A program made the position numbers and the translations under genes. This document shows positions 14,771 to 51,630 of a DNA stretch of 64,000 bases, piece by piece. Source of the DNA: Acidimicrobiaceae bacterium (GTDB lineage: Bacteria > Actinomycetota > Acidimicrobiia > Acidimicrobiales > RAAP-2); NCBI GenBank assembly GCA_003169675.1, contig PNAT01000054.1, positions 1-64,000 on the forward strand. The letters run 5' to 3'. A model generated the notes under the pieces. It had not been told where the DNA came from. It did no database searches and saw only the letters and a list, made by a program, of their open reading frames with translations. Position 1 is the stretch's first letter; every line of letters begins with the position of its first letter.

Positions 14771-14913
14771 CACCGACGGGTCCCGGATCCTTCCGCTCAA
14801 CCGGCGACACCAGATCGGGTCTCTTTCATCCTGGCCAATTTTCTCAAATGCCGTGTTAGCAGAGGATTGACCCAGTCTGAACGACGGGGCACGAGTCCCT
14901 TCGACATACTCTG

Positions 14914-14930
14914 AGAACTAGATTCTTGTC
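14914..14930. promoter_or_regulatory. Candidate operator AGAA-N5-TTCT with half-site ATTCTTGTC
   Basis: AGAActagaTTCTTGTC upstream of TetR 14998; shares the 9-mer ATTCTTGTC with the palindrome at 32794..32814. Confidence 0.55.
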
Positions 14931-14997
14931 AGATGAAGCACCTGTAACTACACAAAGAGATCCATCATATTTCCAATCATCCGTTAGACTCTCCTTG

Positions 14998-15830: not shown

Positions 15831-16961
15831 TCACGATGAGGGCAATCCGAGAATGCGCCCGGCCACTAGGTTTCTCTGAATCTGCGATGTGCCCCCCATG
15901 ACGCTCTGGGCCCGACTGTAGAGGTACGTATTCAATGCCGTGTCGTCCCCGCCACCGTGGGCGATGCCACCAATGGAGAGGGCGGCATGTCCGAGTGACT
16001 GCTCCGTCCAAGTCATCAGCAACTTGTCAACTGATCCCTCGGGGCCGTGGGAGATCCCGTTGAGTCGGTCGGAAAGCCGCCGGCGGACATGCAACCGCAG
16101 CATCTCGACCTCCACGATCGCCCACCCCAGGTCTCGGACCTGATCTTCACGGAAGCCACTTGGGTTGACCCGCACTCGGCGGGTGAGCTCATTGACCACC
16201 TTGGTGTAGCGGGCCACATAACCGAGCTCGCCGGGCTCCCTCTCGTGACTGACAATGGTCATGGCCAGGCGCCAACCCTCACCGGGACCACCGATCATGT
16301 TCACCGCCGGGACCCGTGCCTCATTGAAGGCGACCTCGCCGAACTCCTTCGTCATCCCGTTGATCATGCGCAATGGTCTTTGCTCAATCCCGGGCTGGTG
16401 CATCGGCACCACGAAGGCAGAAATGCCGCGATGCTTGGCCACCTCCTGGTCGGTCCGGGCCAACACAAGGCACCACTCGGCATCATCGGAGTAGCTGGTC
16501 CACACCTTGTGGCCCGTGATCACATAGTCGTCACCCTGGCGGTCCGCTCGTGTCCGCAATGAGGCAAGGTCGGAGCCTGCGTCAGGCTCGCTGAACCCCT
16601 GGCACCACCGCTCGCGACCACTGATGATGCCGGGTAGGAATCGTGCCTGAATGTCCTCGTTGCCGTGCTCAAGGATCCCCTGGACGAGGTAACCCAGACT
16701 TGGGCGAGGTGGCGCCCCCGAGGCCGCAAGCTCCTCGTCGACGATGACGTCATAGACCGATGGCAGCCCCTGACCGCCAATTGCCGTCGGCCAGGACATC
16801 CCGAAGAAGCCGGCACCGAAGAGGGACCGGTGCCAGGCCGCAGCCCCCTTCCAGTAGTCATCGTCAGTCGACGAGGTCGGGAGACCGGGGTTGTTCCCCT
16901 GAAGCCATCCGCGTAGTCGCAGTCGGAACTCCGACTCTTCCGGCGAGTCACCAAAGTCCAC
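15831..16961 (-). CDS. Acyl-CoA dehydrogenase family protein
   Basis: 376 aa; WCQGFSEPDAGSDLASLRTRA, YSRAQSVMGGTSQIQRNLVAGRILGLP. Confidence 0.92.
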   Translation of the reverse strand: MDFGDSPEESEFRLRLRGWLQGNNPGLPTSSTDDDYWKGAAAWHRSLFGAGFFGMSWPTAIGGQGLPSVYDVIVDEELAASGAPPRPSLGYLVQGILEHGNEDIQARFLPGIISGRERWCQGFSEPDAGSDLASLRTRADRQGDDYVITGHKVWTSYSDDAEWCLVLARTDQEVAKHRGISAFVVPMHQPGIEQRPLRMINGMTKEFGEVAFNEARVPAVNMIGGPGEGWRLAMTIVSHEREPGELGYVARYTKVVNELTRRVRVNPSGFREDQVRDLGWAIVEVEMLRLHVRRRLSDRLNGISHGPEGSVDKLLMTWTEQSLGHAALSIGGIAHGGGDDTALNTYLYSRAQSVMGGTSQIQRNLVAGRILGLPSS

Positions 16962-17978
16962 TTACGCCCCGATTCCGTAGTGCTGGAGCACCCGGTCCAG
17001 GGAATTGCCGGCGCCACCGAAGATATCCGAAGAGAGGAGCGCTCGCCGCAGGTAGACATGCGCCAGGCATTCCCACGTGTTTCCAATTCCTCCGTGCACC
17101 TGGATCGCCGTCTCACACACATCGCGCGCAGCTCGAGCGCAGTAGGCCTTGGCGACCGAGGCGGCCCCCACCGCATCTCTGGGGTGAAGTGCATCCACCG
17201 CCCAGGCGGCATGGAGAGTGACGCTGCGCGATCCCTCCATCATCACGAAGGCATCCGCCAGCATGTGCTGCATGGCCTGGAAGGAGCCGATGGGTGCTCC
17301 GTATTGGCGACGCTGGGAGGCGTAGTCGGTGGAAAGCTGCACTGCGCCCTGCATGATCCCGACGAGGTCGGCGCAGGTGAGCGAGAGGCCAAGGGCGGTC
17401 CAACGCATGAGGTCGTCATCACTGATCGACCGTCCAGACGGCTCGAGAGATGCCGGTGAGCCCAGTGTGCTTGAGGGACGGGTCAGATCGAGCCCCACCT
17501 CGTCGGAAGCCACATCGACCTCGGCGAGGAAGTTGCCGTCAGATCGCGCTGCCAGAAGGAGGGCCCGTGAGCAACCCGACGCGTCAATAGCCACAAAGGA
17601 CGACAGCTGGCCATCGGCTGCGATGGCGATTGACGAAAGGTCGGACGTAAAGGCCACAGTTTCCGCCGACTCACTTTGTGCGGCACCGGCCAACCTCCTG
17701 AGCTCTGCTGCCATGGTCGGCCCGAGGAACGACACGTCGGCCAGCCCCCGGCCGAACTCTTCGGCGATGATGCCGGCTTCCACTCCCGTTGCCAGCGGGT
17801 CTCCTTGGTCATCGCCCAACCGAAGCTCCCGCCAGCCAGATGACGCGACGGCGGCGTCAAGCTTGGATGTCCGCTCAGCGTTGCCAATCTCTCCGACGGC
17901 GTGGGGGGCCAGTTGGTCAACCACACGGGCCACTGATTCCCGAAGTGCCTGTTGCTCGGTCGAAAGCCGAACATCCAT
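16962..17978 (-). CDS. Acyl-CoA dehydrogenase-like protein (second member of a pair)
   Basis: MDVRLSTEQQALRESVARVVDQLAP...SFQAMQHMLADAFVMMEGSRS...QVHGGIGNTWECLAHVYLRRAL; start at 17978 overlaps the upstream synthetase stop. Confidence 0.88.
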   Translation of the reverse strand: MDVRLSTEQQALRESVARVVDQLAPHAVGEIGNAERTSKLDAAVASSGWRELRLGDDQGDPLATGVEAGIIAEEFGRGLADVSFLGPTMAAELRRLAGAAQSESAETVAFTSDLSSIAIAADGQLSSFVAIDASGCSRALLLAARSDGNFLAEVDVASDEVGLDLTRPSSTLGSPASLEPSGRSISDDDLMRWTALGLSLTCADLVGIMQGAVQLSTDYASQRRQYGAPIGSFQAMQHMLADAFVMMEGSRSVTLHAAWAVDALHPRDAVGAASVAKAYCARAARDVCETAIQVHGGIGNTWECLAHVYLRRALLSSDIFGGAGNSLDRVLQHYGIGA

Positions 17979-19504
17979 TACGTGTCCTGCCCGGGCTCGG
18001 CGTGCGACGCCATCCACTCGTCCCGAAGCACTCGCCGCAGAACCTTCCCGGACGGGAGTCGTGGGATGACGTCGACAATGACGACATCGTGGAGACGCTT
18101 GTAGGTAGCCAACGACTCCATCACGATTCCCTGAATCTCACCATCCGCTATCGGCAGCGCCGGATCGAGCTGTACGGCGGCCACCGGCACCTCGCCGGCA
18201 CGCTCATCGGCGACCCCGAAAACTGCACAGTCGAGCACAGCCGGGTGGCCGTGCAGCACCGCTTCAATTTCAGCCGGCGCCACCTGGAAACCGCTGACCT
18301 TGATCATCTCCTTCGACCGGTCGGTCAGATGCACCCAACCTTCGGGCTCAAGCCACCCGACGTCGCCCGTCCTATACCAGCCCTCCACCATCACTTCAGC
18401 GGTTGCATCCTCCGGGAGGTAGCCGGCCATGACCGACGGACTCAGAACTTGGATCTCGCCGATCTCCCCGGACGGGAGGATCTCACCGGTGTCGAGGTCG
18501 GCGATCCGGAGCGACACTCCAGCGGGTGGCAATCCAGCGGAATCCAAGCGCCACGCATCCGGGCGCTGGACGGGATTGGCGGTGATCACCGGCAACTCGC
18601 TGGCGCCGTAGGCAGGGAGCCAGCGCACCCCGGTTCGTTTGGTCACGATCTCGGCGACACTCACGGTGACCGGCGTCGCTCCCCACATGATGTAGCGCAG
18701 GGATGACAGGTCATACTCTTCCAGGCGCGGGTGATTGGCCATGGCCAACGCGATCGGCGCCACCGCCATCTCGAGCGTCATTCGATCCGTCTCTATCCGG
18801 TGGAGCACCTCATCAAGGTCGAATCGTCTGTGCAGGCGGACGCATGCGCCAGCTGATACTGCGGCGAGCAGATTGAGAAGACCGAGGATGTGCGAGGGAG
18901 GGGTGGCGACCTGGAATCTGTCGTTGGGACCGAGGCCGAGGACCATGCACCAATCTGCCGTGGCGTGGCCCATGGAGTCGTGGGTGTGACGCACCGCCTT
19001 GGGAAGCCCGGTCGTTCCCGAGCTGAAGACCAGGACCGACTCGGCTCCTGGCAGTAGGCCGTCCACTGAGAGTCGAGCACGGCTCAGCGAGAAAAGGTCG
19101 ATCGACCCATCGTCGAGATCGGTCACGTGGTCCGCCTTGAGGACGTCGGCCAGCAGGGCCGACGCGTCGCCATCAGCGACCCCATGCACCGGGTTGGTCA
19201 GGTCGACGGCGTGGCGGACCTCAGCCGCCTTCCAGGCCGGGCTCAGAAGGACCGCGGCGGCACCCAACTTGGCGATGGCATGGACGGCGATCACGAACTC
19301 CACCCGATTGGCCATCATCAGCACGACGCGATCGCCGAGTGTGACGCCCTGACCGGCCAGGTGACGCCCGAAGGAATTGCTGAGGTTGTCCAGCTCGCGG
19401 AACGACCAGGATTCGTCGCCACTGCGAATGGCGACCCGGTCCCCGAAGGTGTCGGCGGCTCGCTCGAGACATTCATGCATCAAGAGCGTCGCCATCGGAA
19501 ACAT
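17978..19504 (-). CDS. AMP-dependent acyl-CoA synthetase/ligase
   Basis: 508 aa; SVLVFSSGTTGLPKAVRHTH, YRTGDVGWLEPEGWVHLTDRSKEMIKVSGFQVAPAEIEAVLHGHP. Confidence 0.93.
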   Translation of the reverse strand: MFPMATLLMHECLERAADTFGDRVAIRSGDESWSFRELDNLSNSFGRHLAGQGVTLGDRVVLMMANRVEFVIAVHAIAKLGAAAVLLSPAWKAAEVRHAVDLTNPVHGVADGDASALLADVLKADHVTDLDDGSIDLFSLSRARLSVDGLLPGAESVLVFSSGTTGLPKAVRHTHDSMGHATADWCMVLGLGPNDRFQVATPPSHILGLLNLLAAVSAGACVRLHRRFDLDEVLHRIETDRMTLEMAVAPIALAMANHPRLEEYDLSSLRYIMWGATPVTVSVAEIVTKRTGVRWLPAYGASELPVITANPVQRPDAWRLDSAGLPPAGVSLRIADLDTGEILPSGEIGEIQVLSPSVMAGYLPEDATAEVMVEGWYRTGDVGWLEPEGWVHLTDRSKEMIKVSGFQVAPAEIEAVLHGHPAVLDCAVFGVADERAGEVPVAAVQLDPALPIADGEIQGIVMESLATYKRLHDVVIVDVIPRLPSGKVLRRVLRDEWMASHAEPGQDT

Positions 19505-24721: not shown

Positions 24722-24759
24722 GGCTTTCTCCTTGGTACCTTGAGGGGAGAATGGGATTC

Positions 24760-25200
24760 CGTAGCAGTAAGAATACTGTTTCTGGACGGATTGCGCCAGT
24801 GCACGGCATACACGTTCAGTGGTGGGCGTCGATGTGGAGGTGCACCGCCCGGCCTATGCCGGCACAGGCGATCAGTAGGCGCAGAGGGCAGCGCGGCACT
24901 CCACCGCACGGAGCCAGAGAAGGCGAAGGCCAGGGCGGCCACGCCGTTGGCCAGGGCGGAGAGGAGGTGCTTGAGGGCGGAGGACAATGGCCAGCGAGGC
25001 CGGCCCGATCAACCACGGAACGGTGAGGGCGAATTGGCGGGACGCGGTGGCAAGGTGCGAGCCCGCCAGGTGCCGCGCCCGCTCTCGCCTTCCGAGCAAT
25101 TCGAGACGCGAACATGAGATGGAGCCGATGCTGCTGACCACCAATGAGACGGTGTTCGTCACGTTGGCGGCGACGGCCGGCCAGCACCAGCCAGAGGGGA
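24760..25200 (-). pseudogene. Decayed sulfite exporter TauE/SafE-like permease
   Basis: Pieces in different minus frames: TNTVSLVVSSIGSISCSRLELLGRRERARHLAGSHL...LTVPWLIGPASLAIVL (ORF 24872..25162), SALKHLLSALANGVAALAFAFSGSVRWSAAL (24718..24987), LRLLIACAGIGRAVHLHIDAHH (24816..25214). Confidence 0.6.
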
Positions 25201-25309
25201 TGCAGTCCCTTCATCCTGGGTGCCGTGTCATCGGGAGTGGATGGGGCAGGACGGGAACCCTCGCCACACCTCGTCTGGTTTCGTCGCCTCTCACCACCAG
25301 AATTTAGAG

Positions 25310-25322
25310 AGAACGTGCTTCT
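25310..25322. promoter_or_regulatory. Candidate operator AGAA-N5-TTCT
   Basis: AGAAcgtgcTTCT in the intergenic region upstream of the P450 gene. Confidence 0.45.
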
Positions 25323-25529
25323 TTATTTTGTGCAATGATCGTTATGATCGCCAATGAGCGGCGAGGATGGGAAGAGCAAAGGACGGGCAACGAGGGACAT
25401 GGATCGGGCACCGAGCACGGGCAGCTGCTCCATTCCCCCGGGCCGGTTGGCCGAGCGCCCCACCGAACCGCACAGTGAAGTTGTGATCCGGCAGCAGCAC
25501 GACCTAGACGTCACAGACGGGGGCCGAAG

Positions 25530-29712: not shown

Positions 29713-29725
29713 ACTCTGCCAGAGT
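29713..29725. promoter_or_regulatory. Candidate operator palindrome ACTCTG-C-CAGAGT
   Basis: Perfect 6-bp arms, 1-nt spacer, in the intergenic region upstream of the CoA-transferase (start 29591). Confidence 0.4.
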
Positions 29726-29825
29726 GGCATTCTCAAATGCGGCGAGGTCCACCGGGCGTGTTGGAGTCCCGGCCGCGCACCCTCACGTGAGCATTGGATG
29801 AGTTGGTACGCGGAGCCTCTCCCCC

Positions 29826-30605
29826 TCACGAATCCAGGCCCGGCGGCACCCAATTCGGCAGTCGTTTCTCCATGAATGCCCTCATCCCCTCGCGAGGTTC
29901 GTCGGAATGGGCCAAGGAGCCGAACATGGTCTGGTAATCGATCAAGCCGTACCGTTCGTTGAGCATGCGTTTGACGTGGGCCCGCGCCTCGGGCGCCGTC
30001 TGGAGGATCTGATGGGCGGCTTCCGTGGCGGCCTCCCGCAGCTGATCGTGGGGCACGACACGGGAGATCACTCCGAGCCGCTGAGCCTCGGCCGCGTCGA
30101 ACGGCCGGGCGGACAACAACAGGTCACGTGCCACGGCCACTCCGACGTGGGCGGGCAGCGCGGCGGCGTAGGTCGCATCCGGGATGCCGCGCAGGAGTTC
30201 GGGCACCCGGAATGTGGCACGGTCGCTGGCCACGGCGATGTCGGCCATCATGGCAATGAGGAGGCCTCCCGCCTGGCAGATTCCGTTCACCGCCGCGATC
30301 ACCGGAGCCCGGCTGTCCCGAATGGTCAAGAACGGGAGGACGTCGTTGCCAATGTGGGGCGGGAGTTGCTCCCCCGGTTCCGAGCGCCCTCCGAGATCCC
30401 CGCCCGGGGCAAACACATCCCCCACCCCCGTAATGATCAGTGCTGCCAGATCGGGGTCATGATTCGTCAGGTGGACGGCGCGTTTCAGGCCGAAATACAT
30501 GGCGGGCGTCAGCGCGTTTCTTGCGGCTGGGCGATCAATTACACACCAGGCGATCGACCCCTCTCGCTCCAGGCGCAGCATCGGTGTACCCAGCTCGTCT
30601 TCCAT
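29826..30605 (-). CDS. Enoyl-CoA hydratase/isomerase family protein
   Basis: 259 aa; IDRPAARNALTPAMYFGL, FAPGGDLGGR, NGICQAGGLLIAMMADIAVAS. Confidence 0.9.
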   Translation of the reverse strand: MEDELGTPMLRLEREGSIAWCVIDRPAARNALTPAMYFGLKRAVHLTNHDPDLAALIITGVGDVFAPGGDLGGRSEPGEQLPPHIGNDVLPFLTIRDSRAPVIAAVNGICQAGGLLIAMMADIAVASDRATFRVPELLRGIPDATYAAALPAHVGVAVARDLLLSARPFDAAEAQRLGVISRVVPHDQLREAATEAAHQILQTAPEARAHVKRMLNERYGLIDYQTMFGSLAHSDEPREGMRAFMEKRLPNWVPPGLDS

Positions 30606-30730
30606 TCGACCTCACCAATTCCCCGGCGACGGCAATCGCCGGCTTGCTACGATATTGGGGTTCTTCAATTATCGCAACGACATACTGTTTTTGGACAATC
30701 CCGTTTCATCCCGAGTCGAAGGAGCGCACC

Positions 30731-31987
30731 ATGGCCCGTCCTCATACGCCGAAGCTCTACCGCCTGCGGAGTGCCCGGATGCTCGATGTCGTGAGTGGCG
30801 AATTCGTCACCCCAGGCAGCCTCCTGATTGAAGGTGACCGCATCATCGAAGTTGCCCCGACCACAGTGCCGGACGGCGCCGAGAACATCGATCTTGGTGC
30901 GTTGACCCTCCTCCCGGGTCTTATGGACATGGAGGTCAACCTCCTTCTCGGCGGGCCCGACCATCGCAGCGCCCTCAACGCCGTTCAGGACGACCCCGCC
31001 GTCCGCACGTTGCGAGCCGTGGCCAACGCCCGGCGCACCCTGCAAGCCGGTTTCACGACGGTGCGGAACCTGGGGCTCTTCATTCAGACCGGAGGGCTCT
31101 TGCTCGACGTGGCCCTCAAGAAGGCCATCGACTTCGGATGGATCGATGGACCTCGCATCGTCCCCGCCGGCCATGCCATCACACCGACCGGTGGGCACCT
31201 TGATCCGACGATGTTCCAGGCGTTTGCACCGCACATCATGCCCCTCACGATTGAAGAGGGCATCGCCAACGGCATCAGTGAGGTTCGCAAGGCCGTCCGC
31301 TACCAGATAAAGCATGGTGCGCAAGTGATTAAGGTGTGCGCATCGGGAGGCGTGATGTCCCACACCGGCCCGGCCGGATGCCAGCAATACTCCGACGAAG
31401 AGTTGAGAGCGATCGTCGACGAGGCTCACCGCGCCGGGCTCAGGGTCGCCGCACACGCTCACGGGGATCAGGGCATCCGTGCTGCTCTCGAGGCAGGCAT
31501 TGACTGCATCGAACACGGCTCGCTGATGACCGACGAAACGCTTGACCGCTTCATCGAACTCAAGCGGTTCTTGGTGCCCACCACCTACCTGGCCGACGGC
31601 ATGGATGTCTCACACGCGGCACCTGAGTTGCAGGCCAAGGCGGCCGAAGTCTTCCCACGGGCCAAGGAAACCGTCAGCAAAGCCATTGCTCGTGGAGCTC
31701 GCATCGCCTGCGGGACCGATGCGCCGGCCATCCCCCACGGGAAGAATGCCAAGGAGCTGATTGCTCTGGTCGACCGGGGAATGACCCCGCTCCAGGCGAT
31801 CCGAGCGGCAACGCTGGTTGCGGCTGAGCTGATCGACGTCGACGACCGAGGTCGCCTGGAGGCCGGACTGTTCGCCGACATCATTGCCGTGCCAGGAGAT
31901 CCCCTGGCTGATATCGGGGTGACCGAGCAGGTCCAATTTGTCATGAAGGGCGGTCAGGTCTACCGCCACGAGGGGTCCGCCGCCTGA
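30731..31987 (+). CDS. Metal-dependent amidohydrolase (imidazolonepropionase/prolidase-like)
   Basis: MARPHTPKLYRLRSARMLDVVSGEFVTPGSLLIEGDRI, LLPGLMDMEVNL, VAAHAHGDQGIRAALEAGIDCIEHGSL, IACGTDAPAIPHGKNAKEL. Confidence 0.9.
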   Translation: MARPHTPKLYRLRSARMLDVVSGEFVTPGSLLIEGDRIIEVAPTTVPDGAENIDLGALTLLPGLMDMEVNLLLGGPDHRSALNAVQDDPAVRTLRAVANARRTLQAGFTTVRNLGLFIQTGGLLLDVALKKAIDFGWIDGPRIVPAGHAITPTGGHLDPTMFQAFAPHIMPLTIEEGIANGISEVRKAVRYQIKHGAQVIKVCASGGVMSHTGPAGCQQYSDEELRAIVDEAHRAGLRVAAHAHGDQGIRAALEAGIDCIEHGSLMTDETLDRFIELKRFLVPTTYLADGMDVSHAAPELQAKAAEVFPRAKETVSKAIARGARIACGTDAPAIPHGKNAKELIALVDRGMTPLQAIRAATLVAAELIDVDDRGRLEAGLFADIIAVPGDPLADIGVTEQVQFVMKGGQVYRHEGSAA

Positions 31988-32015: not shown

Positions 32016-32726
32016 TCAGGACTCGGAACCGGTCCCGATGCCGTGGACAATGAGATCCCATAGGTATTCCGCCGAATCACCGGCATGGGGTCGTGCCGAC
32101 AAACCGCCAATGGTCGAAGAGAACGTGTTGAACATGATCGCCTCGAGCACTATGCCGACAATCGGGCCCTCACCAAGGCCAGATCTGACGGCTCCTGCCG
32201 CTGCCGCGCCCTGAAGGACATCCTCGAACAGCGACACAACGGGAGCGAAGACCCGGGCCGCCTCTTTGGGATGGGCCGTGAGTAGTTGTTGCGCGAATTC
32301 GGCCATGAAGGGCGCCCGCCCGTTCGCACTGGCTTCGAGCATGTAGGGCGGCCGGCAGATTCGGTAGTACTCAACGACGAAGGAGTGCAGGCGCTCCAGC
32401 GGGTCGTCTTCATCGGCCAGGCGTTCTCCGAGACGCTCCGCTGCGGACTGCACCGACTCTTCAAACAGCGCTAGGAGCAGCTCGTGTTTCCCCCCGAAGT
32501 ACTGATAGAAGCTGTGCAGGGACTGGCCAGATCGCTCAACGACCTCTTGGACCGTGAACTCCTTGCCGGAGTTGGAATTGAAGAGCTCGGTGGCGGCGTC
32601 CAAGAACCGCTGCACCCGCACTTCGGCCCGGGTCCGGGCCGAATCGAGCGATCGCGTCACCGCCTGCTCCCGCCAACTGTGCCCGTCGGACTCGGAAGCA
32701 TCACTTGCCAATTGGCTCTCTGTCAC
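32016..32726 (-). CDS. TetR family transcriptional regulator (paralog of 14998..15708)
   Basis: 236 aa; AEVRVQRFLDAATELFNSNSGKEFTVQEVVERSGQSLHSFYQYFGGKHELLLALFEESVQSA. Confidence 0.92.
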   Translation of the reverse strand: MTESQLASDASESDGHSWREQAVTRSLDSARTRAEVRVQRFLDAATELFNSNSGKEFTVQEVVERSGQSLHSFYQYFGGKHELLLALFEESVQSAAERLGERLADEDDPLERLHSFVVEYYRICRPPYMLEASANGRAPFMAEFAQQLLTAHPKEAARVFAPVVSLFEDVLQGAAAAGAVRSGLGEGPIVGIVLEAIMFNTFSSTIGGLSARPHAGDSAEYLWDLIVHGIGTGSES

Positions 32727-32793
32727 CAGGGAAAGCTTACCCGACGACCAGGGGCAATGCGGATCTCTCGATGTGCTGGCCTATGGCTCAGTC

Positions 32794-32814
32794 GACAAGA
32801 ATTGCATTCTTGTC
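32794..32814. promoter_or_regulatory. Perfect 21-bp interrupted palindrome GACAAGAAT-TGC-ATTCTTGTC, candidate TetR operator
   Basis: 9-bp perfect arms, 3-nt spacer, about 70 bp upstream of TetR start 32726. Confidence 0.75.
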
Positions 32815-32877
32815 CGGTCCGGCCGCACACCGGCCAACGGCATCGCGTCCTCGACCACGAACGCGACGAGACCGTGC

Positions 32878-33204
32878 TCAGACTGCCGGCTCAATCAACA
32901 TGTCCATGCTGGCCGCACCACTGTCCGGGACCCTGGGCTGACGCCACACCTCCACCGGGAACGAGGCGTTCACGAGGGAATAGAGGAGCCAGAGCAACCG
33001 CGTGGCATCTGGGGGAAGTGCGTTCAGGTCGAACTTGTTGAGGTACTCGATGGCCTCCTCAAGTCGGGGGAATGCAGTGTCGTAGAACGACTGCAGTTCG
33101 TCCATCGTGCTGGAAAGGCGCTTGGCGTACCGCTCGGCCTCGGTCTCGAGTGACCAGTCGGCGAATAGCTCCAGCTCTCCAAATTCGGTGGGCAGGGTAG
33201 GCAT
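32878..33204 (-). CDS. Small conserved-looking hypothetical protein downstream of the Rieske oxygenase
   Basis: 108 aa; MPTLPTEFGELELFADWSLETEAERYAKRLSSTMDELQSFYDTAFPRLEEAIEYLNKFDLNALPPDATRLLWLLYSLVNASFPVEVW; 17-bp gap after the Rieske stop; no recognised family. Confidence 0.65.
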   Translation of the reverse strand: MPTLPTEFGELELFADWSLETEAERYAKRLSSTMDELQSFYDTAFPRLEEAIEYLNKFDLNALPPDATRLLWLLYSLVNASFPVEVWRQPRVPDSGAASMDMLIEPAV

Positions 33205-33221: not shown

Positions 33222-34547
33222 TCAGGACGCGGCCGAAATCTTGACTGGTGTCGCCGCGCTCTTTTCATAGTCGGCCACGTGCTCACGGGCCGTCGTGTGC
33301 AGGTGCCGGAGCAGGATCTCCTGGTCGTTCAAGGGAAAAAGGGTGACGGCCCGTGACTCGAGCATCGTCTGCGTCGCTTCGAGCGTATTGCCGTCCTGGA
33401 GTGCGTACTCCTTGAACGTGACAGCGGCCAACTCTTGGCGCAGTCGCTCCTCGGCATTCTTCGCCGGCACGAAGTAGAGCGTTCCCTCGAAGATGTGCGT
33501 GTTGTACGAAGTCGGCCAGTAGTGGTACGTGAGGTACCACCCCGGTTCCCACACCAGGAGCATGAAGTTGGGGAAGAACACGAACGAGTCGATACCCCAG
33601 GCCTTGTGCTGCGCCGGGTTCAGCGCAGGCGGCAGGTTGTCGAGGCCCTCGATGTCAGGGTGGTCCCATGGCCCAAACAGCCCACTGCGCAGGATCCGCT
33701 CAATCGGCTTGACCATGTCGAGGTCCTTCGGTGGTGACATGCCTCCCCAGGACGAGACCATGCTGTGGGGCCCATTGATCTTGTAGGCCAGTGCTTCGAA
33801 CCCGACCTCGGAGAGTTTGCGCGATTCGTCGGCCGTCGCTTGCTTCGCGTGGAGGATCGGCGCGTGGTAAAACTCCGCGAACGCGTCGATGAATAGCTTC
33901 CAGTTGCTGCCGACGTTGGCCCGGTACTTGTAGACCTCCGTCATTTTGTCGAAGGGGTAGCCTGCCAGCTCCGCACCGAATTCTCCGAGGTATTCGTCCA
34001 GTGACGTGGTGTTCTCGGGATTGAGGTTCACGAAGATGAACCCCTGCCACGTCTGGAGCTTGACCGAAGCCAGCCCGTAGTCACCCTTGTCGAGGTTGAA
34101 GAACTCCGACTCCTGCTGGACAAATGTCAGCTCGCCATCGGTTCCATAGCGCCACCCGTGGTACTTGCAGGTGAACTGACGGCACGTGCCGCTGGTCTCC
34201 TCGCCGGGGAAGTCATTCCAAACCAACTTGTTGCCGCGGTGCCGGCAGATGTTGTGAAAGGCCCGCACCTCGCCGTCCGTGCCCTTGACGACGATGATCG
34301 ACGTCCCTGCGGCTGCGATCTCCTTGGTGAAGTAGCTCCCCGCTCGGGGCAATTGCTCCACTCGACCCACGTTGAGCCAGGTCCGGGAAAAGATGGCCTT
34401 GCGTTCGAGTTCGTAGTGCTCCGGCGAGATGGAGTCCTCATAGGACACCGGCCCGGTCCCGAGCTCAGGGTATTGCTCGGTCCAGCTGCCTTCAGCTGGC
34501 TTGGCGAAATGTGGCACGTCGATCCTCCAAATGGGGTTGGGACACAT
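33222..34547 (-). CDS. Rieske 2Fe-2S aromatic-ring-hydroxylating dioxygenase, alpha subunit
   Basis: 441 aa; NICRHRGNKL...CRQFTCKYHGWRYG (CxH...CxxH) and mononuclear iron region FIDAFAEFYHAPILH. Confidence 0.94.
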   Translation of the reverse strand: MCPNPIWRIDVPHFAKPAEGSWTEQYPELGTGPVSYEDSISPEHYELERKAIFSRTWLNVGRVEQLPRAGSYFTKEIAAAGTSIIVVKGTDGEVRAFHNICRHRGNKLVWNDFPGEETSGTCRQFTCKYHGWRYGTDGELTFVQQESEFFNLDKGDYGLASVKLQTWQGFIFVNLNPENTTSLDEYLGEFGAELAGYPFDKMTEVYKYRANVGSNWKLFIDAFAEFYHAPILHAKQATADESRKLSEVGFEALAYKINGPHSMVSSWGGMSPPKDLDMVKPIERILRSGLFGPWDHPDIEGLDNLPPALNPAQHKAWGIDSFVFFPNFMLLVWEPGWYLTYHYWPTSYNTHIFEGTLYFVPAKNAEERLRQELAAVTFKEYALQDGNTLEATQTMLESRAVTLFPLNDQEILLRHLHTTAREHVADYEKSAATPVKISAAS

Positions 34548-34580
34548 AAGTCATAGCATCAATCTGCCAAATACAGAAGC

Positions 34581-35156
34581 TCATTTCCGTTTCAGGTCAT
34601 CGTCGAGTTCGATCCCGAAAGACTTGAAGGCCATGGCGAGAATCTCGTAGGCGCCGACGGTGAAAACCAGGTCCATGAGCTGGCGTTCTTCAAGGTCGCC
34701 CGCCAGGACCTGCCACGTCGATTCCGCCACCATGCCGTCTTGGACGAGTTCGTCCACTGCGCTCAACATCGCCCTCTCCAGTGGGGACCAACCGGGCGCA
34801 TCGGGACCCACGGCGATCCGTTCAATCTCCTCGGGACCGAGTCCGACGTCACCGGCAAGAACGGCATGCTGCTCCCACTCATAGGGCGACTGCCGGACGG
34901 TGGCCACGCGAAGCACCAACATCTCTCGCTGGCGGGGTGACAGGGTCGACGCGAAGAGGATGTAGCCGTTGAACGTGTGAAACGCCTGCGTGAGCAGTGG
35001 GTGGCGGGCCAGCGTGCCCAATGCATTGAGGGCCTTCGGACGATCCTTCTGCTCGGGAAACGGATGGCGAGAATTGGCTGGTCGCAACGCGGCCAGCGCC
35101 GCCCTCATCTCCTCCGGCCACTCTTTCGGCGGAAGAGGCGAGATCCGTGGCGTCAC
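34581..35156 (-). CDS. Carboxymuconolactone decarboxylase (CMD/AhpD-like) family protein
   Basis: 191 aa; LSPRQREMLVLRVATVRQSPYEWEQHAVLAGDVGLGPEEI, AVDELVQDGMV. Confidence 0.88.
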   Translation of the reverse strand: MTPRISPLPPKEWPEEMRAALAALRPANSRHPFPEQKDRPKALNALGTLARHPLLTQAFHTFNGYILFASTLSPRQREMLVLRVATVRQSPYEWEQHAVLAGDVGLGPEEIERIAVGPDAPGWSPLERAMLSAVDELVQDGMVAESTWQVLAGDLEERQLMDLVFTVGAYEILAMAFKSFGIELDDDLKRK

Positions 35157-38467: not shown

Positions 38468-38529
38468 TGTTGGGCGACCAATCCAAAGTACATTGCCATT
38501 CTAGGAGAACTTCGTTATCATTTGTCAAT

Positions 38530-39599: not shown

Positions 39600-40031
39600 A
39601 TGAAGAAGCTCGTCGTTGACGACGTCATCGAACTCCAGCAGCTGCTGGCGCGTTATGCCGTCGGCATGACCAAGGGCGACATTGAAGCCGTAATGGACGT
39701 GTTCACTTCTGATGGCACCTATAGCGCCTTCGGGGACATCTATCCACTCCAAGATTTCCCCACGCTCGTGGCGGCGGCTCCCAAAGGGCTCTTCCTTGTG
39801 GGGCCTCCAGCGTTCGAGCTTGACGGGGATACCGGGCATGGCCAGCAAACTTTGTGCTTCGTCGAACAGACGACCCACGACATGCGTATCGGGTACTACT
39901 CCGACACGTATTGCCGAACGACCGATGGTTGGCGGTTGCAGACACGGTCGATGACGTTCCTACGCAAGAGCGGCGCCCAGGACGCCGGACGACCGCACGA
40001 CCCCACTCGGCCGGCTCCGACTGGTCGCTGA
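39600..40031 (+). CDS. SnoaL/NTF2-like fold protein
   Basis: MKKLVVDDVIELQQLLARYAVGMTKGDIEAVMDVFTSDGTYSAFGDIYPL; YYSDTYCRTTDGWRLQTRSMTFLR. Confidence 0.8.
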   Translation: MKKLVVDDVIELQQLLARYAVGMTKGDIEAVMDVFTSDGTYSAFGDIYPLQDFPTLVAAAPKGLFLVGPPAFELDGDTGHGQQTLCFVEQTTHDMRIGYYSDTYCRTTDGWRLQTRSMTFLRKSGAQDAGRPHDPTRPAPTGR

Positions 40032-41161
40032 TGGAGCTCGATGAATATCGGGCTTCGCTGGACGACTGGCTGGAGAGGAACACCCACGTCCTGACGCCCG
40101 ACCATGACGGCATCGGGACGCTCGACGACCAGATGGCCCAGCTTTCCAAGGTCAAGCGGCTCGCTTTCGAAGCCGGATGGATGCGCTGGGGATGGCCAGA
40201 GCGCGTCGGAGGGCTCGGTGGCTCGATCCTCTTGCGCGCCTACCTGGGCGAGGCGCTGACATCTCGGGACCTCGTTGAGCCGGGCATCTATTCGATGACT
40301 GAAGTGCTGGCACCAACCATGATCGACTACGCACCACTTGACTTGGCGGCCAGCATGGTGCCCAAGCTCCTGAGCGGTGAGGAGACCTGGTGCCAGGGGT
40401 TCTCGGAACCCGCTACCGGCAGCAATCTCGCAGCGCTGTCCTGTCGCGCCACCAGAGACGGCGATGTGTGGCGTATCTCGGGACAAAAGGTCTGGACCAG
40501 CCTCGCTCAGTACGCGGACCGATGTGTGCTCCTCACGCGTACCGGCTCATCCGAATCCGCCCACACGGGCATCACCGCACTCTTCGTCGACATGGGCAGC
40601 CCAGGTATCACGGTTCGGCCGATCGAGACCATGCACGGTGTTCCAGAGTTCTCCGAGGTCTTCTTCGACGACGTTGCCGTTCCATTGGACCGCACATTGG
40701 GAGAGGAGGGCCAGGGCTGGTCGGTCGCCATGGACCTCCTCCCGTTTGAGCGGAGCACTGCGCTCTGGCATCGCGTCGCCTACCTGCACCGCAGACTGCA
40801 AAGCCTCCTCGACGTCGCCCCAGCTCACCTGCTCGACTCCGTCGCTCTGGGCGAGGTGACGCAACTCCTTTATGCCTTACGGGCCCGCTCGCGTGCGACG
40901 CAATATCGGGTCGCCGCGGGCGAGAAGCTGGGTCCCGAGACGTCGATCGACAAGGTGCTGGTGGCAAGTGCTGAGCAAGCAGTCTTCGACCTCGTCGGTG
41001 CTGGTCTGGGTGAGGAAGTGATCATGGGAGACGATCCCTCCAGCGACCGGTGGCGCCGGGAGTACCTCTACTCGCGAGCAGCGACGATCTATGGCGGGAC
41101 CGCGGAGATTCAGAGGAACATCATCGCCCGCCGACTACTCGACCTTGGTTCGGACCGATAG
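40031..41161 (+). CDS. Acyl-CoA dehydrogenase family protein
   Basis: WCQGFSEPATGSNLAALSCRATRDGDVWRISGQKVWTS, YSRAATIYGGTAEIQRNIIARRLLDLG. Confidence 0.92.
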   Translation: MELDEYRASLDDWLERNTHVLTPDHDGIGTLDDQMAQLSKVKRLAFEAGWMRWGWPERVGGLGGSILLRAYLGEALTSRDLVEPGIYSMTEVLAPTMIDYAPLDLAASMVPKLLSGEETWCQGFSEPATGSNLAALSCRATRDGDVWRISGQKVWTSLAQYADRCVLLTRTGSSESAHTGITALFVDMGSPGITVRPIETMHGVPEFSEVFFDDVAVPLDRTLGEEGQGWSVAMDLLPFERSTALWHRVAYLHRRLQSLLDVAPAHLLDSVALGEVTQLLYALRARSRATQYRVAAGEKLGPETSIDKVLVASAEQAVFDLVGAGLGEEVIMGDDPSSDRWRREYLYSRAATIYGGTAEIQRNIIARRLLDLGSDR

Positions 41162-42123
41162 TGGACGCTGCTGATCGGGAGATCTTCAAGGCCAGCCTTC
41201 TTCACGCCGTTCGGGGTCACACCGGCTCTGCGCTCGATGCGGCCCTCGACGACCTCGGATGGCATGAAGCACTGACGCTGGATGCAGAGACGGCAGTTTC
41301 GCTCCTCTTCGAAGTGCAGGGCACCGCGAGTGCAAGTTCCTCGGCCATCGGCGAGGTGCTCCGTTTCGCACTTGGCTTGGACGGTCACCACAAGAGCGAT
41401 GTCGTGTTGCCGGCCTTCGGCCGATGGGAGACGCCGGGAAAGATCGTGGATGGAAGTCTCAGCGTTCGCGGGCTGGGAATCGTCAGCATGGGTGACCGAC
41501 CGCGCACGCTCATTGCGGCCACGGTCAATGACATGGTCGCGGTGCTCGACGTGATGGCGGCCGACCTCGTTCTCCGTCACGTGGGCGGGGTGGATCCGCG
41601 GCTCGGCCTGGTCCAGGTGGTCGGCGACGGGGTTCCCTTCAACGTGCTCACCGAGCTAGAACCCACCGGCTGGTCGACGGCGGTTGGCGTCTCCCAGCTC
41701 GCCCTCGGACACGAGCTCGTCGGTGCGGCGAGGACCATGCTGGAGCTGGCCCGCCAGCATGCCTTGGCGCGTATACAATTCGGGAAGCCGATCAGCGCAT
41801 TCCAGTCCATCAGGCATCGACTTGCCGACACCCTGGTAGGCATCGAAACCGCCGAATCCATGTTGCGGGCCGCGTGGGTGGATCAGTCCCCCGTGACAGC
41901 AGGCATGGCCAAGGCGCTCGCTGGGCGTGGCGCTCGTGCCGCCGCCCGCCACTGCCAACAGGTGTTGGCCGGCATCGGCTTCACTACAGAGCACTCGTTC
42001 CACCACTATGTCAGGCGCGTCTTCGTGCTCGACCAGCTCTTCGGCACCGCCTCTGCCTTGACCGGGGAGCTGGGCAATCAGCTTCTCAGTTCCCGTCAGC
42101 TCATGGCTATGCCGCCGCTGTGA
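41161..42123 (+). CDS. Acyl-CoA dehydrogenase-like protein (pair partner)
   Basis: GTG start at 41161 overlaps the upstream stop; FGKPISAFQSIRHRLADTLVGIETAESMLRAAW, HCQQVLAGIGFTTEHSFHHYVRR. Confidence 0.87.
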   Translation: MDAADREIFKASLLHAVRGHTGSALDAALDDLGWHEALTLDAETAVSLLFEVQGTASASSSAIGEVLRFALGLDGHHKSDVVLPAFGRWETPGKIVDGSLSVRGLGIVSMGDRPRTLIAATVNDMVAVLDVMAADLVLRHVGGVDPRLGLVQVVGDGVPFNVLTELEPTGWSTAVGVSQLALGHELVGAARTMLELARQHALARIQFGKPISAFQSIRHRLADTLVGIETAESMLRAAWVDQSPVTAGMAKALAGRGARAAARHCQQVLAGIGFTTEHSFHHYVRRVFVLDQLFGTASALTGELGNQLLSSRQLMAMPPL

Positions 42124-42203: not shown

Positions 42204-43157
42204 TCAGGATGAAGCGACCAGCGAGGCCAGGAGTTCGCGCGTGCGCTTGGAGGACGCAATGAGGTCCTCCCGAGACTCGCCAATCGGCACGACCCGGACC
42301 GAAATATCAGTCACGCCGGCATCGGCGAATCCGCCCAAGCGACGTTCGATGGTCGACTCGCTGCCGGCGATCAGGATGTCGCCAACACTTCGCGCGTCAC
42401 CGTGCTCCAGCAGTTTCTGATAGTTCGGAGACACTTCGGCCTCGGAAAGAATGCGGTTCGTGCGGGCTACGGCGACGTCGATTTCGGCGTCGCTGCAGAG
42501 GCAGACCGGCACGCCAGCAACGACTCGCGGCGCCGGCCGGCCAGCCTCCGCCGCGGCACGGGTCAAGTTGGGAACGACGTGCGAACCGATCGCCCGCTCG
42601 TCAGCCATCCAGAGAATGGTGCCATCGGCCCGCTCGCCGCACAGTTTCAGCATGAGTGGTCCCAGCGCGGCAATAAGTATTGGCGTCGGCGTGACGTCCG
42701 TGATGTCGAGCGGATTGTGCACCCGGAAATACTCGTTTTCCACATCGACGGTGCCCGGGCCGCTGAGGGCCTGGTCGAGCACGTCGAGGTAGGCTCGCAT
42801 GGTCGGGACCGGACGCTCGTAGGGCAATCCGAGCATTTCGTCAATCACCCAATGGTGTGACACACCCAGGCCAACGGAAAGACGACCCTCACAGACGGCC
42901 TGCACGGACAGGATCTGCTGGGCCAGCGCAATCGGGTGCCGTGGCTGGACCGGCACCACGGCAGTGCCGATCTCGATCCGAGTGGTCTCCGTACCGACGA
43001 GGACTGCGGCGGTGAGCGCATCGAATTCGTCGGGAATCTGCGGGATCCAAACCGTGTCGAGTCCAGCACCTTCCGCCCAGCGGGCGTCGGCCTGGAGCCG
43101 TTCCACTTTGGTCCGGTAGCGGCCGCGCTCCGGGCCGATCATCAAGCCGATTCGCAT
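42204..43157 (-). CDS. LLM-class (luciferase-like, probably F420-dependent) oxidoreductase
   Basis: MRIGLMIGPERGRYRTKVERLQADARWAEGAGLDTVWIPQIPDEFDALTAAVLVGTETTRIEIGTAVVPVQPRHPIALAQQILSVQAV. Confidence 0.9.
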   Translation of the reverse strand: MRIGLMIGPERGRYRTKVERLQADARWAEGAGLDTVWIPQIPDEFDALTAAVLVGTETTRIEIGTAVVPVQPRHPIALAQQILSVQAVCEGRLSVGLGVSHHWVIDEMLGLPYERPVPTMRAYLDVLDQALSGPGTVDVENEYFRVHNPLDITDVTPTPILIAALGPLMLKLCGERADGTILWMADERAIGSHVVPNLTRAAAEAGRPAPRVVAGVPVCLCSDAEIDVAVARTNRILSEAEVSPNYQKLLEHGDARSVGDILIAGSESTIERRLGGFADAGVTDISVRVVPIGESREDLIASSKRTRELLASLVASS

Positions 43158-43194
43158 GCCGCGGCTTCCTTCCAATATTGGGGATCGTAATATG

Positions 43195-43207
43195 AGAACA
43201 CACTTCT
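43195..43207. promoter_or_regulatory. Candidate operator AGAA-N5-TTCT
   Basis: gAGAAcacacTTCTc (5-bp arms), 38 bp upstream of the LLM start at 43157. Confidence 0.5.
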
Positions 43208-43514
43208 CCTCTATCTGCATTGATAATTCTGTTCCTGGGTGAATTCTCGGCGGCACTTGGGAGGTCCAAAGGTGTCACGGAAAGGGTTATTCCCAGATGG
43301 AGGGACATCTTGAGGTCAATGCGGTCTCCGTCGCACCCTTCAGACTTCTCTCCAGGTCCATGTCACGGCGGCAAGGAACACACGCCCATGAGGTACACCG
43401 ATCCATGATTTCGGGTGCTGATCCGGAGTGCCGATGGCGCAAGCGCGACCATTCCCACGTCATGATTGGTGTCACCAGCCTTCGATGCCTCCGAAATTGG
43501 AGGACATCCACGGA

Positions 43515-46307: not shown

Positions 46308-47447
46308 ATGTTGTTAGCGCTGACCGATGACCAGGAGCTCTTCCGAGAAACAACGTCCAAGCTCCTCGGTGAATTCGTCCCGGCCGAAGTCCTTCGCAGC
46401 CTGCAGGACGACGCAATCGGCTTCGAGGCTGAATACTGGCGTCGTGGTGCGGACCTCGGGTGGACCTCACTCCTGGTGGGCGAGGAGCACGGAGGCGGCT
46501 CTCTCAGTGGCCAGGGCCTCGTCGACCTCACCCTGGTGGCTCATGAGTTCGGCCGACATGCCGCTCCGGGTCCGCTGGCTGTCACCAATGTCGTCGCGGC
46601 GACGTTGAGCGAAGCGGGAGGCAGTCAAAGCAACGGGGTGATCGGCGATCTGCTGACCGGTAGGTCAATTGCCACATGGTGCTTCAGTGAGCCACGGCCC
46701 CACGATCGACTCGACAACGGCTGCTTGGACATCCGTGTGAACGGTGACGAAGTCGTCCTCAATGGAGTGAAGCGACCCGTCGAGTCTGGCCATGGAGCCA
46801 GCCACCTCTTGGTGTCCGGTCGCACGGGGGCCGGATACTCACAGGTGCTAGTACCCGCTGGTGCCAGCGGCATGACCTTGGCGACCATGCAAAGCGTTGA
46901 TCTGACACGCCGATTCTCTGTGGTCACTTTTGATGACGTCAGGCTTCCCTCCTCCACCGTCATCGGTGAAATCGGGTGCGCTGGTGAGCAGGTCACGAGG
47001 CAACTCCGGCGTGTCATCGCCATTTTGTGTGCAGAATCCGTCGGGACCATGCAGGCGGCCTTCGACATGACGGTCGAATGGGCCTTCGATCGCTATTCGT
47101 TTGGCCGTCCATTGGCGTCGTACCAGGAGCTCAAACATAGATTTGCCGATATGAAGACCTGGCTGGAAGCGAGTCACGCGGTGAGCGATGCCGCCACTCT
47201 GGCCGTGGCGCTTGGGGAGCCCGACGCCGACGAGCTCCTCAGCAGTGCAAAGGCATTCATTGGCGACTTCGGATCCGAACTAATTCAGGACTGTGTCCAG
47301 ATCCATGGAGGTATTGGAGTGACCTTCGATCACGATCTCCACCTCTTCCTTCGCCGTCACACCTTGAATCGCGGGCTCTACGGGACTCCCGAAGAGCACC
47401 GCCAGCGCCTGGCAGACCTTGTCACCATGACGGAGAGTGCAACATGA
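46308..47447 (+). CDS. Acyl-CoA dehydrogenase-like protein (pair partner)
   Basis: MLLALTDDQELFRETTSKLLGEFVPAEVLRSL, YSFGRPLASYQELKHRFADMKTWLEASHAV, QIHGGIGVTFDHDLHLFLRRHTL. Confidence 0.9.
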   Translation: MLLALTDDQELFRETTSKLLGEFVPAEVLRSLQDDAIGFEAEYWRRGADLGWTSLLVGEEHGGGSLSGQGLVDLTLVAHEFGRHAAPGPLAVTNVVAATLSEAGGSQSNGVIGDLLTGRSIATWCFSEPRPHDRLDNGCLDIRVNGDEVVLNGVKRPVESGHGASHLLVSGRTGAGYSQVLVPAGASGMTLATMQSVDLTRRFSVVTFDDVRLPSSTVIGEIGCAGEQVTRQLRRVIAILCAESVGTMQAAFDMTVEWAFDRYSFGRPLASYQELKHRFADMKTWLEASHAVSDAATLAVALGEPDADELLSSAKAFIGDFGSELIQDCVQIHGGIGVTFDHDLHLFLRRHTLNRGLYGTPEEHRQRLADLVTMTESAT

Positions 47448-48712
47448 GCAACGTCGAACAAGAAGATGTCGAAACCTTCAGGCAGAGGGCTCGCTCCTTC
47501 ATCCGAAACAATCTCCAGCCGATCTCTTCGGATGCCTTGGTATTCCCACTACGAAATGTTCGGAACGACGACGAAGAGTTGACGGCCGTGGCCCGGGAGC
47601 GGGAAGTCCAGCGGATGCTGTTCGATGCCGGGTTGGCTGGCATCTGCTTCCCTCGGAAATACGGTGGCCAGGAGCTGACTCCGGCACATCAACGGGCACT
47701 CAATGAGGAATTCGACGGCTACGAATACCCCTCGCGCCTGCAAGCACCGACACTCTCCCCGTGCGCAGCAGTTCTCCTCGACTTCGGTTCTGAAGAGCAG
47801 AAACTTCGGCACATACCGGCCATCCTCAATGGTGAGGAAATCTGGATGCAATTCCTCTCCGAGCCCAGCGGGGGCTCTGACGTCGCAGGCGCGCAGATGA
47901 GCGCTATCCGCGATGGTGATGAATGGGTGCTGAACGGCTCGAAGATATGGACAACTGGGGCCTGGTGGTCCGATTGGGGCCTCTGCCTCACTCGCACGAA
48001 TTGGGACGTCCCCAAACACCGCGGTCTCTCGGTCTTCATACTCCCCATTCATCAGCCGGGCCTCGAGGTTCACCGCATCGAAATGCTGAATGGTTCGAAG
48101 GAGTTCTGCCAAGAATTTCTCACTGATGTCCGGGTGCCAGACTCTGACCGCATTGGTGGCGTTGATGATGGTTGGACTGTCGGGACCCGCTGGATGTTTC
48201 ACGAGCGCATGCTCACCAATTCTCCGTTGGTTACCATGCCTACCGGCGCCGGACGCACTAGCGTGGGTGCCACATTTGTGCACGCTGTCGCTCAAGAAGC
48301 TGGCCGCGCCTCTGAGCCCCATATCCGCGACTACATCGGGGAGACCCTCATGCTCGACATCGTCGAACGCGAGCTCCAGCGTCGCATCGGCGATGGACTC
48401 GCAACGGGAACGATGGCAGACCAGGCCGCGGCAGTTGGTCGTTTGTTCTCGGGCGTTGCCGCAACCCGGATCCGCACGATCGCATTCGAGATCGCCGGCG
48501 GCGCCGGTGCGGCATGGACCGATGACGATGGGGAGCTGGCCTTCAGCGGCTCAGACTTCCTCATGCGGCAGGTGTCCTGCATAGGTGGTGGCACGACCGA
48601 AATGGCGCGCAACGTGATCAGCGAGCGCGTCCTTGGGATGCCTCGGGAGCGGACCCTCGACAAGGACATCCCCTACCGCGACGTGCCGCGCAGCGCGTCG
48701 TCACGCACCTAG
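47444..48712 (+). CDS. Acyl-CoA dehydrogenase family protein
   Basis: 422 aa; WMQFLSEPSGGSDVAGAQMSAIRDGDEWVLNGSKIWTTGAWWSDWG; ATGA overlap with the previous gene. Confidence 0.92.
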   Translation: MSNVEQEDVETFRQRARSFIRNNLQPISSDALVFPLRNVRNDDEELTAVAREREVQRMLFDAGLAGICFPRKYGGQELTPAHQRALNEEFDGYEYPSRLQAPTLSPCAAVLLDFGSEEQKLRHIPAILNGEEIWMQFLSEPSGGSDVAGAQMSAIRDGDEWVLNGSKIWTTGAWWSDWGLCLTRTNWDVPKHRGLSVFILPIHQPGLEVHRIEMLNGSKEFCQEFLTDVRVPDSDRIGGVDDGWTVGTRWMFHERMLTNSPLVTMPTGAGRTSVGATFVHAVAQEAGRASEPHIRDYIGETLMLDIVERELQRRIGDGLATGTMADQAAAVGRLFSGVAATRIRTIAFEIAGGAGAAWTDDDGELAFSGSDFLMRQVSCIGGGTTEMARNVISERVLGMPRERTLDKDIPYRDVPRSASSRT

Positions 48713-48833: not shown

Positions 48834-50462
48834 TCAGACGTCGTTGCGTTGAAGGAGGAGCACCCCTGAAGGTGTACCGCCTCCGGAAGTCACGACAGCA
48901 GTCGCGGCATCGGAAACTTGTCGAGCCTCAGCTTCATGACGAAGTTGGATGACAGCCTCATAAAGAAAGCCGAAGCCGTGCGTACGTCCCTCGGAGAGTT
49001 GCCCACCGTGAGGATTCACCGGGAGCTCTCCGTCGAGGGCAATACGGCGACCGCCGTCCAACCACTCCTGGGCCTCACCGAACCTGCAGAATCCGAGGGC
49101 CTCCAACCAGGAGATGGCATTGAACGTGAAGCCGTCGTAGAGCAGGGCGACGTCGACGTCGGACGGCTGGAGACTGGTTCGTGACCAGAGGTGCGCGGAC
49201 TGGCCGATCACTTGAGGCTCGTGAGTGATCGTGTCCTGATCCCACGAGACTCGCTCGGTAATCTGAGTTCCGACCGCTTCAATGCGGATGCCCATTCGAG
49301 GAAGGTCTGACACCACCGACGCGTCCGAGACGATGACGGCGATCGATCCATCACATGGAATATCACAGTCATACAACCCGAACGGAGAGGTAATGGGTCG
49401 GGCCGACATGTAGTCGTCCATGGTCATTGGGTCCCTGTAGATGGCCGCCGGGTTACGTGACGCATTCATTCGGCCATTGAGGGCGATCATTCCAAGCATT
49501 TCGCGGGTGGCGCCATAGCGATGGAGATATTGATTGGCGTTCATGGCGATCCAGTTGGAAGCCGACATGGCGCCGAAGGGCATCCGCCAGGCCGATGGTC
49601 CCGACGAGCGCCCACCACCGGAGCCACCGAGGCGAAGCGTGGCATACGTAGATTCCCACACCGTGCGGAAGCACAAGACATGACGACAGAGACCGGATGC
49701 GACTGCCAGCATGGCGGCGATGACAGAGCCACCTGGACCTGGAAGGTCTCCGCCGCCATTGGTCCAAGTGGGGTGGAGCCGGAGCGCCTCCTCAACAGCC
49801 GTGATCCCCCCTTCGCTCATACCCATTCCCGCATAACCCGGATAGGTTGAAAGTCCGTCGATGTCTTCGAGTTGCAAACCAGCATCAGCAACGGCCTTGA
49901 GGCAGGCATCGATGGTCAGCGAGAGGGGATCAACCATCAACCGCCGGCCGAGCGTCGATCGACCCACACCCGAAAGGACGGAACGGTGTTCGAAACGATC
50001 GTCACTCAAGGGTGCCCGTGCAACCGGGCGCCGGGGTTCTGGAACAACGTCCGCTTCCGACTCCTGGCCCGTGAGCTCAAAAAGAGGTATCCAGATGTCC
50101 TCTTCGTTGGTGAACCTGACGACGACCTGCTGACCGATGTGGACCTCCTCGGGGTCACAATTGACGATGTTGGTAGTGAGCCGGACCCCTGGTTCTTCAG
50201 CCAGCGCCACCACGGCGATGACATATGGAGGTGTGAAGTCCGGATGCCATTGGTGTTGATTCACGGTGTATCCGATGATCGTGCCACGACCAGAAACAAT
50301 GGTCGGTTCATACTCTCGACTCCGACACACCGGACAGATCGGCACGGGAGGATGAACGAGGGTGCCACATTGCGTACAGCCTTGGATGCGAAGCTGTCCG
50401 TCAACACCGGATGTCCAGAACCACTCGGTGGCCGGTGTCAGTTCGGGAAGGGGCCTCATCAC
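48834..50462 (-). CDS. DUF35 (Zn-ribbon + OB-fold) - thiolase/lipid-transfer-like fusion protein
   Basis: N-term QGCTQCGTLVHPPVPICPVCRSREYEPTIVSGRGTIIGYTVNQH (4-Cys ribbon, OB); C-term VGRSTLGRRLMVDPLSLTIDACLKAVADAGLQLEDIDGLSTYPG...VNPHGGQLSEGRTHGFGFLYEAVIQLR (thiolase-like). Confidence 0.9.
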   Translation of the reverse strand: MMRPLPELTPATEWFWTSGVDGQLRIQGCTQCGTLVHPPVPICPVCRSREYEPTIVSGRGTIIGYTVNQHQWHPDFTPPYVIAVVALAEEPGVRLTTNIVNCDPEEVHIGQQVVVRFTNEEDIWIPLFELTGQESEADVVPEPRRPVARAPLSDDRFEHRSVLSGVGRSTLGRRLMVDPLSLTIDACLKAVADAGLQLEDIDGLSTYPGYAGMGMSEGGITAVEEALRLHPTWTNGGGDLPGPGGSVIAAMLAVASGLCRHVLCFRTVWESTYATLRLGGSGGGRSSGPSAWRMPFGAMSASNWIAMNANQYLHRYGATREMLGMIALNGRMNASRNPAAIYRDPMTMDDYMSARPITSPFGLYDCDIPCDGSIAVIVSDASVVSDLPRMGIRIEAVGTQITERVSWDQDTITHEPQVIGQSAHLWSRTSLQPSDVDVALLYDGFTFNAISWLEALGFCRFGEAQEWLDGGRRIALDGELPVNPHGGQLSEGRTHGFGFLYEAVIQLRHEAEARQVSDAATAVVTSGGGTPSGVLLLQRNDV

Positions 50463-51511: not shown

Positions 51512-51630
51512 GTTTTCACCTTTCTTGCCATTGACCGCGTCTCGGCCCGTAAAGATCCCATGTCCTCGATCACCGAATCGGGCAATGCGGAGAACGGGCT
51601 CCACCGTTGGGCACAGCGCTCAGACCGTGA

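Follow-up and report, generated by a model that had tools for sequence, protein, structure and literature searches.

The closest known catabolic regulators of the TetR family, namely KstR, KstR2 and FadR, are repressors. KstR has the operator motif TnnAACnnGTTnnA, in which AAC and GTT are 2 bp apart (PMC1995591), and KstR2 the 14-bp motif AnCAAGnnCTTGnT (PMC3068626). QacR occupies a 28-bp palindrome as a tetramer (PMC4482099). The system predicted here shares with KstR a regulator of the TetR family, palindromic operators that are both autoregulatory and regulon-wide, a large CoA-ester catabolic island and a half-site with GAAC/AAC; however, its spacer is 3 rather than 2 bp, and paired sites 22 bp apart are its marked feature. 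KstR2 resembles it as a TetR repressor whose short palindromic motif marks a small number of catabolic promoters. FadR of Bacillus and Thermus, whose structures bind acyl-CoA, and EthR2 share the TetR fold and are among the best Foldseek matches, but at 14–20% identity over the alignment, the comparison being one of protein structures. QacR offers a TetR-family case of two dimers on one DNA site, although on a single extended palindrome and not, as here, on two complete, separate dyads 22 or 44 bp apart from centre to centre.

The locus lies in an Acidimicrobiaceae contig, of which we analysed a 64-kb stretch (hereafter, the window). The palindrome GACAAGAAT-TGC-ATTCTTGTC occupies 32794–32814, within the 151 bp that separate a 108-aa ORF (32878–33204, minus strand) from the gene of a TetR-family protein, TetR_B; its letters and coordinates, read from the window, are exactly those of the preliminary description, which reported a perfect 21-bp palindrome with 9-bp arms before a TetR gene. 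It has no second match in the 3.56-Mb genome with up to 3 mismatches allowed. The half-site ATTCTTGTC occurs in the window only in both palindrome arms and at 14922–14930 (0.3 expected; no shuffle reaches 3), before the paralogous gene TetR_A, and the distance from half-site to GTG start is exactly 67 bp for TetR_A and TetR_B alike. The earlier observation of an exact half-site at the paralogue thus holds, but it understated the case, because a full imperfect dyad, AGAAC-TAG-ATTCT, is present there. Sites were scored with two matrices: M0, a symmetric matrix trained by EM only on the TetR promoters of other genomes, and M2, trained on 74 intergenic sites from 20 neighbourhoods of other genomes with the window excluded. 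The features of the two regulator genes are as follows, dyads being given without strand:

32016–32726, minus strand: TetR_B, the proposed regulator, 236 aa, with helices 59–66 and 70–76 as the helix-turn-helix (HTH)
14998–15708, plus strand: TetR_A, a paralogue with 76% identity to TetR_B
32794–32814: putative distal strong operator of TetR_B, a perfect palindrome with a 19-bp core at 32795–32813 (M0 6.1; M2 12.3, the third-best site of the window)
32751–32769: second, weak dyad GAGAGATC-cgc-ATTGCCCC (read on the minus strand), at 44 bp from the palindrome (M2 3.8, M0 4.8)
32734–32739, minus strand: putative -10 box TAAGCT of TetR_B, 7 nt before the GTG
14911–14929: putative TetR_A operator CTGAGAAC-tag-ATTCTTGT, 67 bp before the GTG (M2 12.1)
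14955–14973: another TetR_A dyad, AAGAGATC-cat-CATATTTC, lying 44 bp downstream of that at 14911 (M2 7.1)

Both proteins match the TetR_N HTH domain (PF00440; 36.9 and 39.2 bits against a cut-off of 24), and the AlphaFold model (pLDDT 84.8) displays a TetR fold with an all-helical ligand-binding domain. The best Foldseek matches are TetR regulators, with EthR2, YvdT and the acyl-CoA-binding FadR among the nearest structures. The family alignment also has a long conserved N-terminal helix (residues 18–51), with invariant R25, R31, R33 and R37 before the HTH, which could contact DNA or a neighbouring dimer. In the promoter of TetR_B, the weak dyad at 32751–32769 covers the expected -35 position. 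A consensus promoter search at strict settings found none for TetR_B, and the -10 box is argued from the orthologues only, in which a TANNNT box recurs shortly before the start; with 7 nt between TAAGCT and the GTG, the gene probably yields a leaderless transcript.

At the thresholds used, 12 of 100 genomes within the family carry TetR_A/B homologues, as do 22 of 397 within the order; one relative with such a homologue is an Acidimicrobiaceae MAG. The pattern AGAAY-N3-RTTCT was read from a first group of promoters and fixed before the second group was examined. We then compared spacers 0–8 with dinucleotide shuffles, which remove shared promoter ancestry only in part: spacer 3 stands out at z = 6.9 in the discovery promoters (7.6 with one extra base per arm) and at z = 5.4 in the 14 held-out promoters (6.8 with the extra base), reached by no shuffle in either set, with a lesser signal at spacer 1 among the held-out promoters. 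The refined dyad of the family matrix M2 is GAKAAY-N3-RTTMTC, i.e., half-sites GA[GT]AA[CT] with spacer 3. A palindromic dyad in the regulator's own promoter is hence kept in the orthologues, as for an autoregulated operator, with six exceptions in which it is weak or absent (L016, L017, L045, L046, L047 and L060). Lack of conservation in orthologous promoters had been named beforehand as an outcome that would speak against an operator, and the conserved spacer-3 dyad instead backs the proposal of a TetR operator common to both paralogous genes. In some orthologous loci the TetR gene follows the 108-aa gene immediately, leaving no gap for a promoter. One locus (L053) has, upstream of its TetR gene, a perfect dyad GATGAGAACGACCGTTCTCATC with AGAAC/GTTCT at spacer 4, unlike the others.

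The preliminary description had further held the palindrome to be distinct from the KstR2 type, and our results agree with this, the half-site core being GAGAAC-like rather than CAAG-like. A KstR2-type CAAG was rejected as the family motif, since its letters are not conserved in the orthologues; the window palindrome has CAAG as a local variant outside the family motif, and the GA[GT]AA[CT] half-sites and spacer 3 do not fit AnCAAGnnCTTGnT. The KstR-type spacer-2 site TnnAACnnGTTnnA was likewise rejected, as spacer 3 is selected and the pattern is absent at the window promoters; a single match, at 7 of 8 positions, was found among the intergenic stretches of the window. Against the KstR equivalog model NF033703 the regulator scores 25.7 bits, below the cut-off of 280. 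By spacer, half-site and protein family, therefore, the dyad is neither a KstR nor a KstR2 site: the system works like KstR, yet is not KstR.

Beyond what had been claimed before, namely in addition to the GAGAAC-like core, we found regulon-wide sites and a regular pairing of dyads at 22 or 44 bp. Eight intergenic sites of the window score at least 8.5 with M2, where the rate in intergenic DNA of the same genome (109 kb) would give 0.75 (Poisson ~1e-6). A match at 51291, called intergenic, was dropped, as it lies inside an ORF (50459–51604) missed by the simple gene caller. The sites beyond the two regulator promoters, with weaker dyads and one promoter, are:

38503–38521: putative operator AGGAGAAC-ttc-GTTATCAT (M2 14.7, the best in the window), near-invariant in other genomes
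38493–38521, plus strand: sigma-70-like promoter TTGCCA-N17-TATCAT, found once (shuffles 0.0)
43192–43210: putative operator ATGAGAAC-aca-CTTCTCCT upstream of an F420-dependent luciferase-like gene (42204–43157, minus strand; M2 13.6)
57181–57199: putative operator TCCAGAAT-gtt-CTTCTCAT upstream of an amidohydrolase gene (55869–57170, minus strand; M2 10.3)
30649–30667: putative operator ACGATATT-ggg-GTTCTTCA between divergent genes (29826–30605, minus strand; 30731–31987, plus strand), fronting an ECH/amidohydrolase pair (M2 10.0)
25307–25325: putative operator GAGAGAAC-gtg-CTTCTTTA upstream of a P450 gene (25530–26735, plus strand; M2 9.6)
29718–29736: putative operator GCCAGAGT-ggc-ATTCTCAA upstream of a CoA-transferase gene (28374, minus strand; M2 8.7)
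24745–24785: two weak dyads, at 24745 and 24767, exactly 22 bp apart, upstream of an amidohydrolase/AMP-ligase operon (24721, minus strand; 6.5 and 6.6)
34550–34590: weak double dyad, at 34550 and 34572, 22 bp apart, upstream of a Rieske oxygenase gene (33222–34547, minus strand)

In some 20 genomes it is the same catabolic genes that carry the motif upstream. The dyad at 38503 lies in the divergent promoter of an AMP-ligase (36794, minus strand) and a ferredoxin reductase (38530, plus strand), and its form GGAGAAC-ttc-GTTATC between these two genes is almost invariant across the neighbourhoods of other genomes. Rieske-alpha orthologues with at least 66% identity are found only in genomes that bear the TetR. 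Scored with M0, i.e., with the matrix from TetR promoters alone, the best site upstream of Rieske-alpha reaches 4.7–11.6 at 17 loci with the TetR versus -1.0 to 4.1 at 12 loci without it (p = 3e-6). Among genomes of at least 3.2 Mb, exact copies of GAKAAYNNNRTTMTC average 2.11 per genome with the TetR versus 0.92 without (p = 6e-5), the latter mean implying that genomes lacking the TetR also carry some copies. Both associations with the TetR are correlations and as such distinct from binding. A genome-wide count of the palindromic pattern against a reversed control (40 vs. 6) was not counted as evidence, since GAGAAC is favoured by codon usage relative to the control.

Among intergenic dyad pairs within 60 bp, 16 are spaced at exactly 22 bp and four at 44 bp, with no other distance represented more than twice. 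Orthologous Rieske promoters, where the double dyad that is weak in the window is strong, account for 11 of the 22-bp pairs; when these promoters are left out, 22 bp is still the commonest offset (8 pairs, where offsets average 0.53). The promoters of TetR_A, TetR_B and the relative L012 each have, at 44 bp from the first dyad, a weaker second one. As 22 bp corresponds to two helical turns, two dimers could bind next to each other on the same face of the helix, and the strict 22-bp pairing makes this a concrete, testable prediction.

The palindrome, then, is very probably where a TetR-type switch protein docks. The reading that we favour, and hold to be likely, is that it serves as an operator of TetR_A/B, governing their own genes and a local catabolic regulon through a repressor that a pathway intermediate would relieve. 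Taken alone, the palindrome is weak evidence, since the window contains four distinct perfect dyads with 9-bp arms (spacer 0–8) against a shuffle mean of 2.9, and about three are expected at its composition; only the one at 32794–32814 is intergenic, and only this one is A+T-rich. That it arose by chance is nevertheless the least credible of the alternatives and is already contradicted by conservation: the paralogue has the dyad at the same position, and the motif recurs throughout the regulon. The case for function thus lies in the recurrence of the motif across promoters and genomes and not in the palindrome itself. Only marginally more credible is a transcribed hairpin, which would either terminate the upstream operon or act as an mRNA element. 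The 108-aa gene, read on the same strand, does have its stop codon about 63 bp before the palindrome, but the arms of the palindrome are A+T-rich with no T-run, and conservation concerns a short motif that many promoters share, often before divergent genes, rather than a hairpin behind genes. An intrinsic terminator was rejected, as no terminator-like site, with G+C-rich stem and T-run, was found in 32650–32950.

The dyad might instead belong to another TetR protein, which we regard as improbable. Two KstR-like proteins are encoded elsewhere in the genome (G000:C31:30212-30754 and C40:2619-3161; 156 and 150 bits, under the cut-off of 280), the half-site resembles that of KstR, TnnAACnnGTTnnA (PMC1995591), and a TetR_C_41 regulator is encoded in the same island (10498–11157, plus strand). 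However, the selected spacer is 3 and not the 2 of KstR, the dyad is absent from the promoters of the KstR-like genes and from the region before 10498, and it tracks the presence of the TetR_A/B family. A shade less probable again is that the TetR acts as an activator, or as activator and repressor both. The strong palindrome, its centre about 78 bp before the TetR_B start, does lie upstream of the core promoter, while the dyad over the -35 position is the weaker one; repression of TetR_B would for this reason depend on the weak proximal site. Activation nonetheless fits poorly with the dyad at 38503, which overlaps the spacer and -10 box of the good TTGCCA-N17-TATCAT promoter, with that at 57181, which directly adjoins the start codon, and with the repressing action of KstR, KstR2 and FadR.

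Given repression by TetR_A/B, the observed motif, its conservation, regulon membership, TetR co-occurrence and pairing distance can be drawn into a provisional mechanism. A TetR_A/B dimer would recognize dyads of the GAKAAY-N3-RTTMTC type, and two dimers, perhaps cooperatively, would occupy paired dyads at 22 or 44 bp. The bound regulator would cover promoter elements, as its position at 38503 suggests and as may hold elsewhere, and so repress both its own gene and the island's catabolic genes, the candidate targets being acyl-CoA ligases, the Rieske oxygenase and reductase, luciferase-like mono-oxygenases, amidohydrolases, the CoA-transferase and the P450. Release might come from an intermediate of the degraded compound, possibly an acyl-CoA as for KstR and FadR. 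As related sites front many degradation genes, at the same places in other genomes, this would be a new network of an ordinary kind; the type of regulon is known, and its conserved member in an uncultured lineage appears to be new, with no regulon of this kind in Acidimicrobiales described, and nothing useful on the motif, in the mostly open-access literature searched. What results for this large island of catabolic genes in uncultured Acidimicrobiales is a predicted regulator together with its operator code and a list of target genes. Since the predicted regulon marks genes acting together, uncharacterized ones included, it should help in finding the compound degraded.

A more speculative notion, to which we give rather little credence, is that TetR_A and TetR_B are starting to split in operator specificity, which with the 22/44-bp pairing would amount to a two-repressor cooperative scheme caught during divergence. 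At position 71 of its recognition helix TetR_B has His, in contrast to the Arg of all 32 other family members in the alignment. The half-sites of its own operator read AAGAAT as against the family GAGAAC, the TetR_A operator being a hybrid of both; caution comes from L012, a relative with Arg71 that also has an ACAAGAA-type half-site.

Several further features of the island are worth recording. The TetR_C_41 gene heads an ACAD operon. Three adjacent pairs of acyl-CoA dehydrogenase genes (15831–18017, 40031–42123 and 46308–48712) are present with a ChsH2-thiolase fusion nearby, a combination likewise found in steroid side-chain pathways; family models assign only general activities to the island proteins. 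The 108-aa protein has no Pfam match; in most neighbourhoods it is encoded after Rieske-oxygenase alpha, at 52–80% identity, and it is possibly an accessory subunit.
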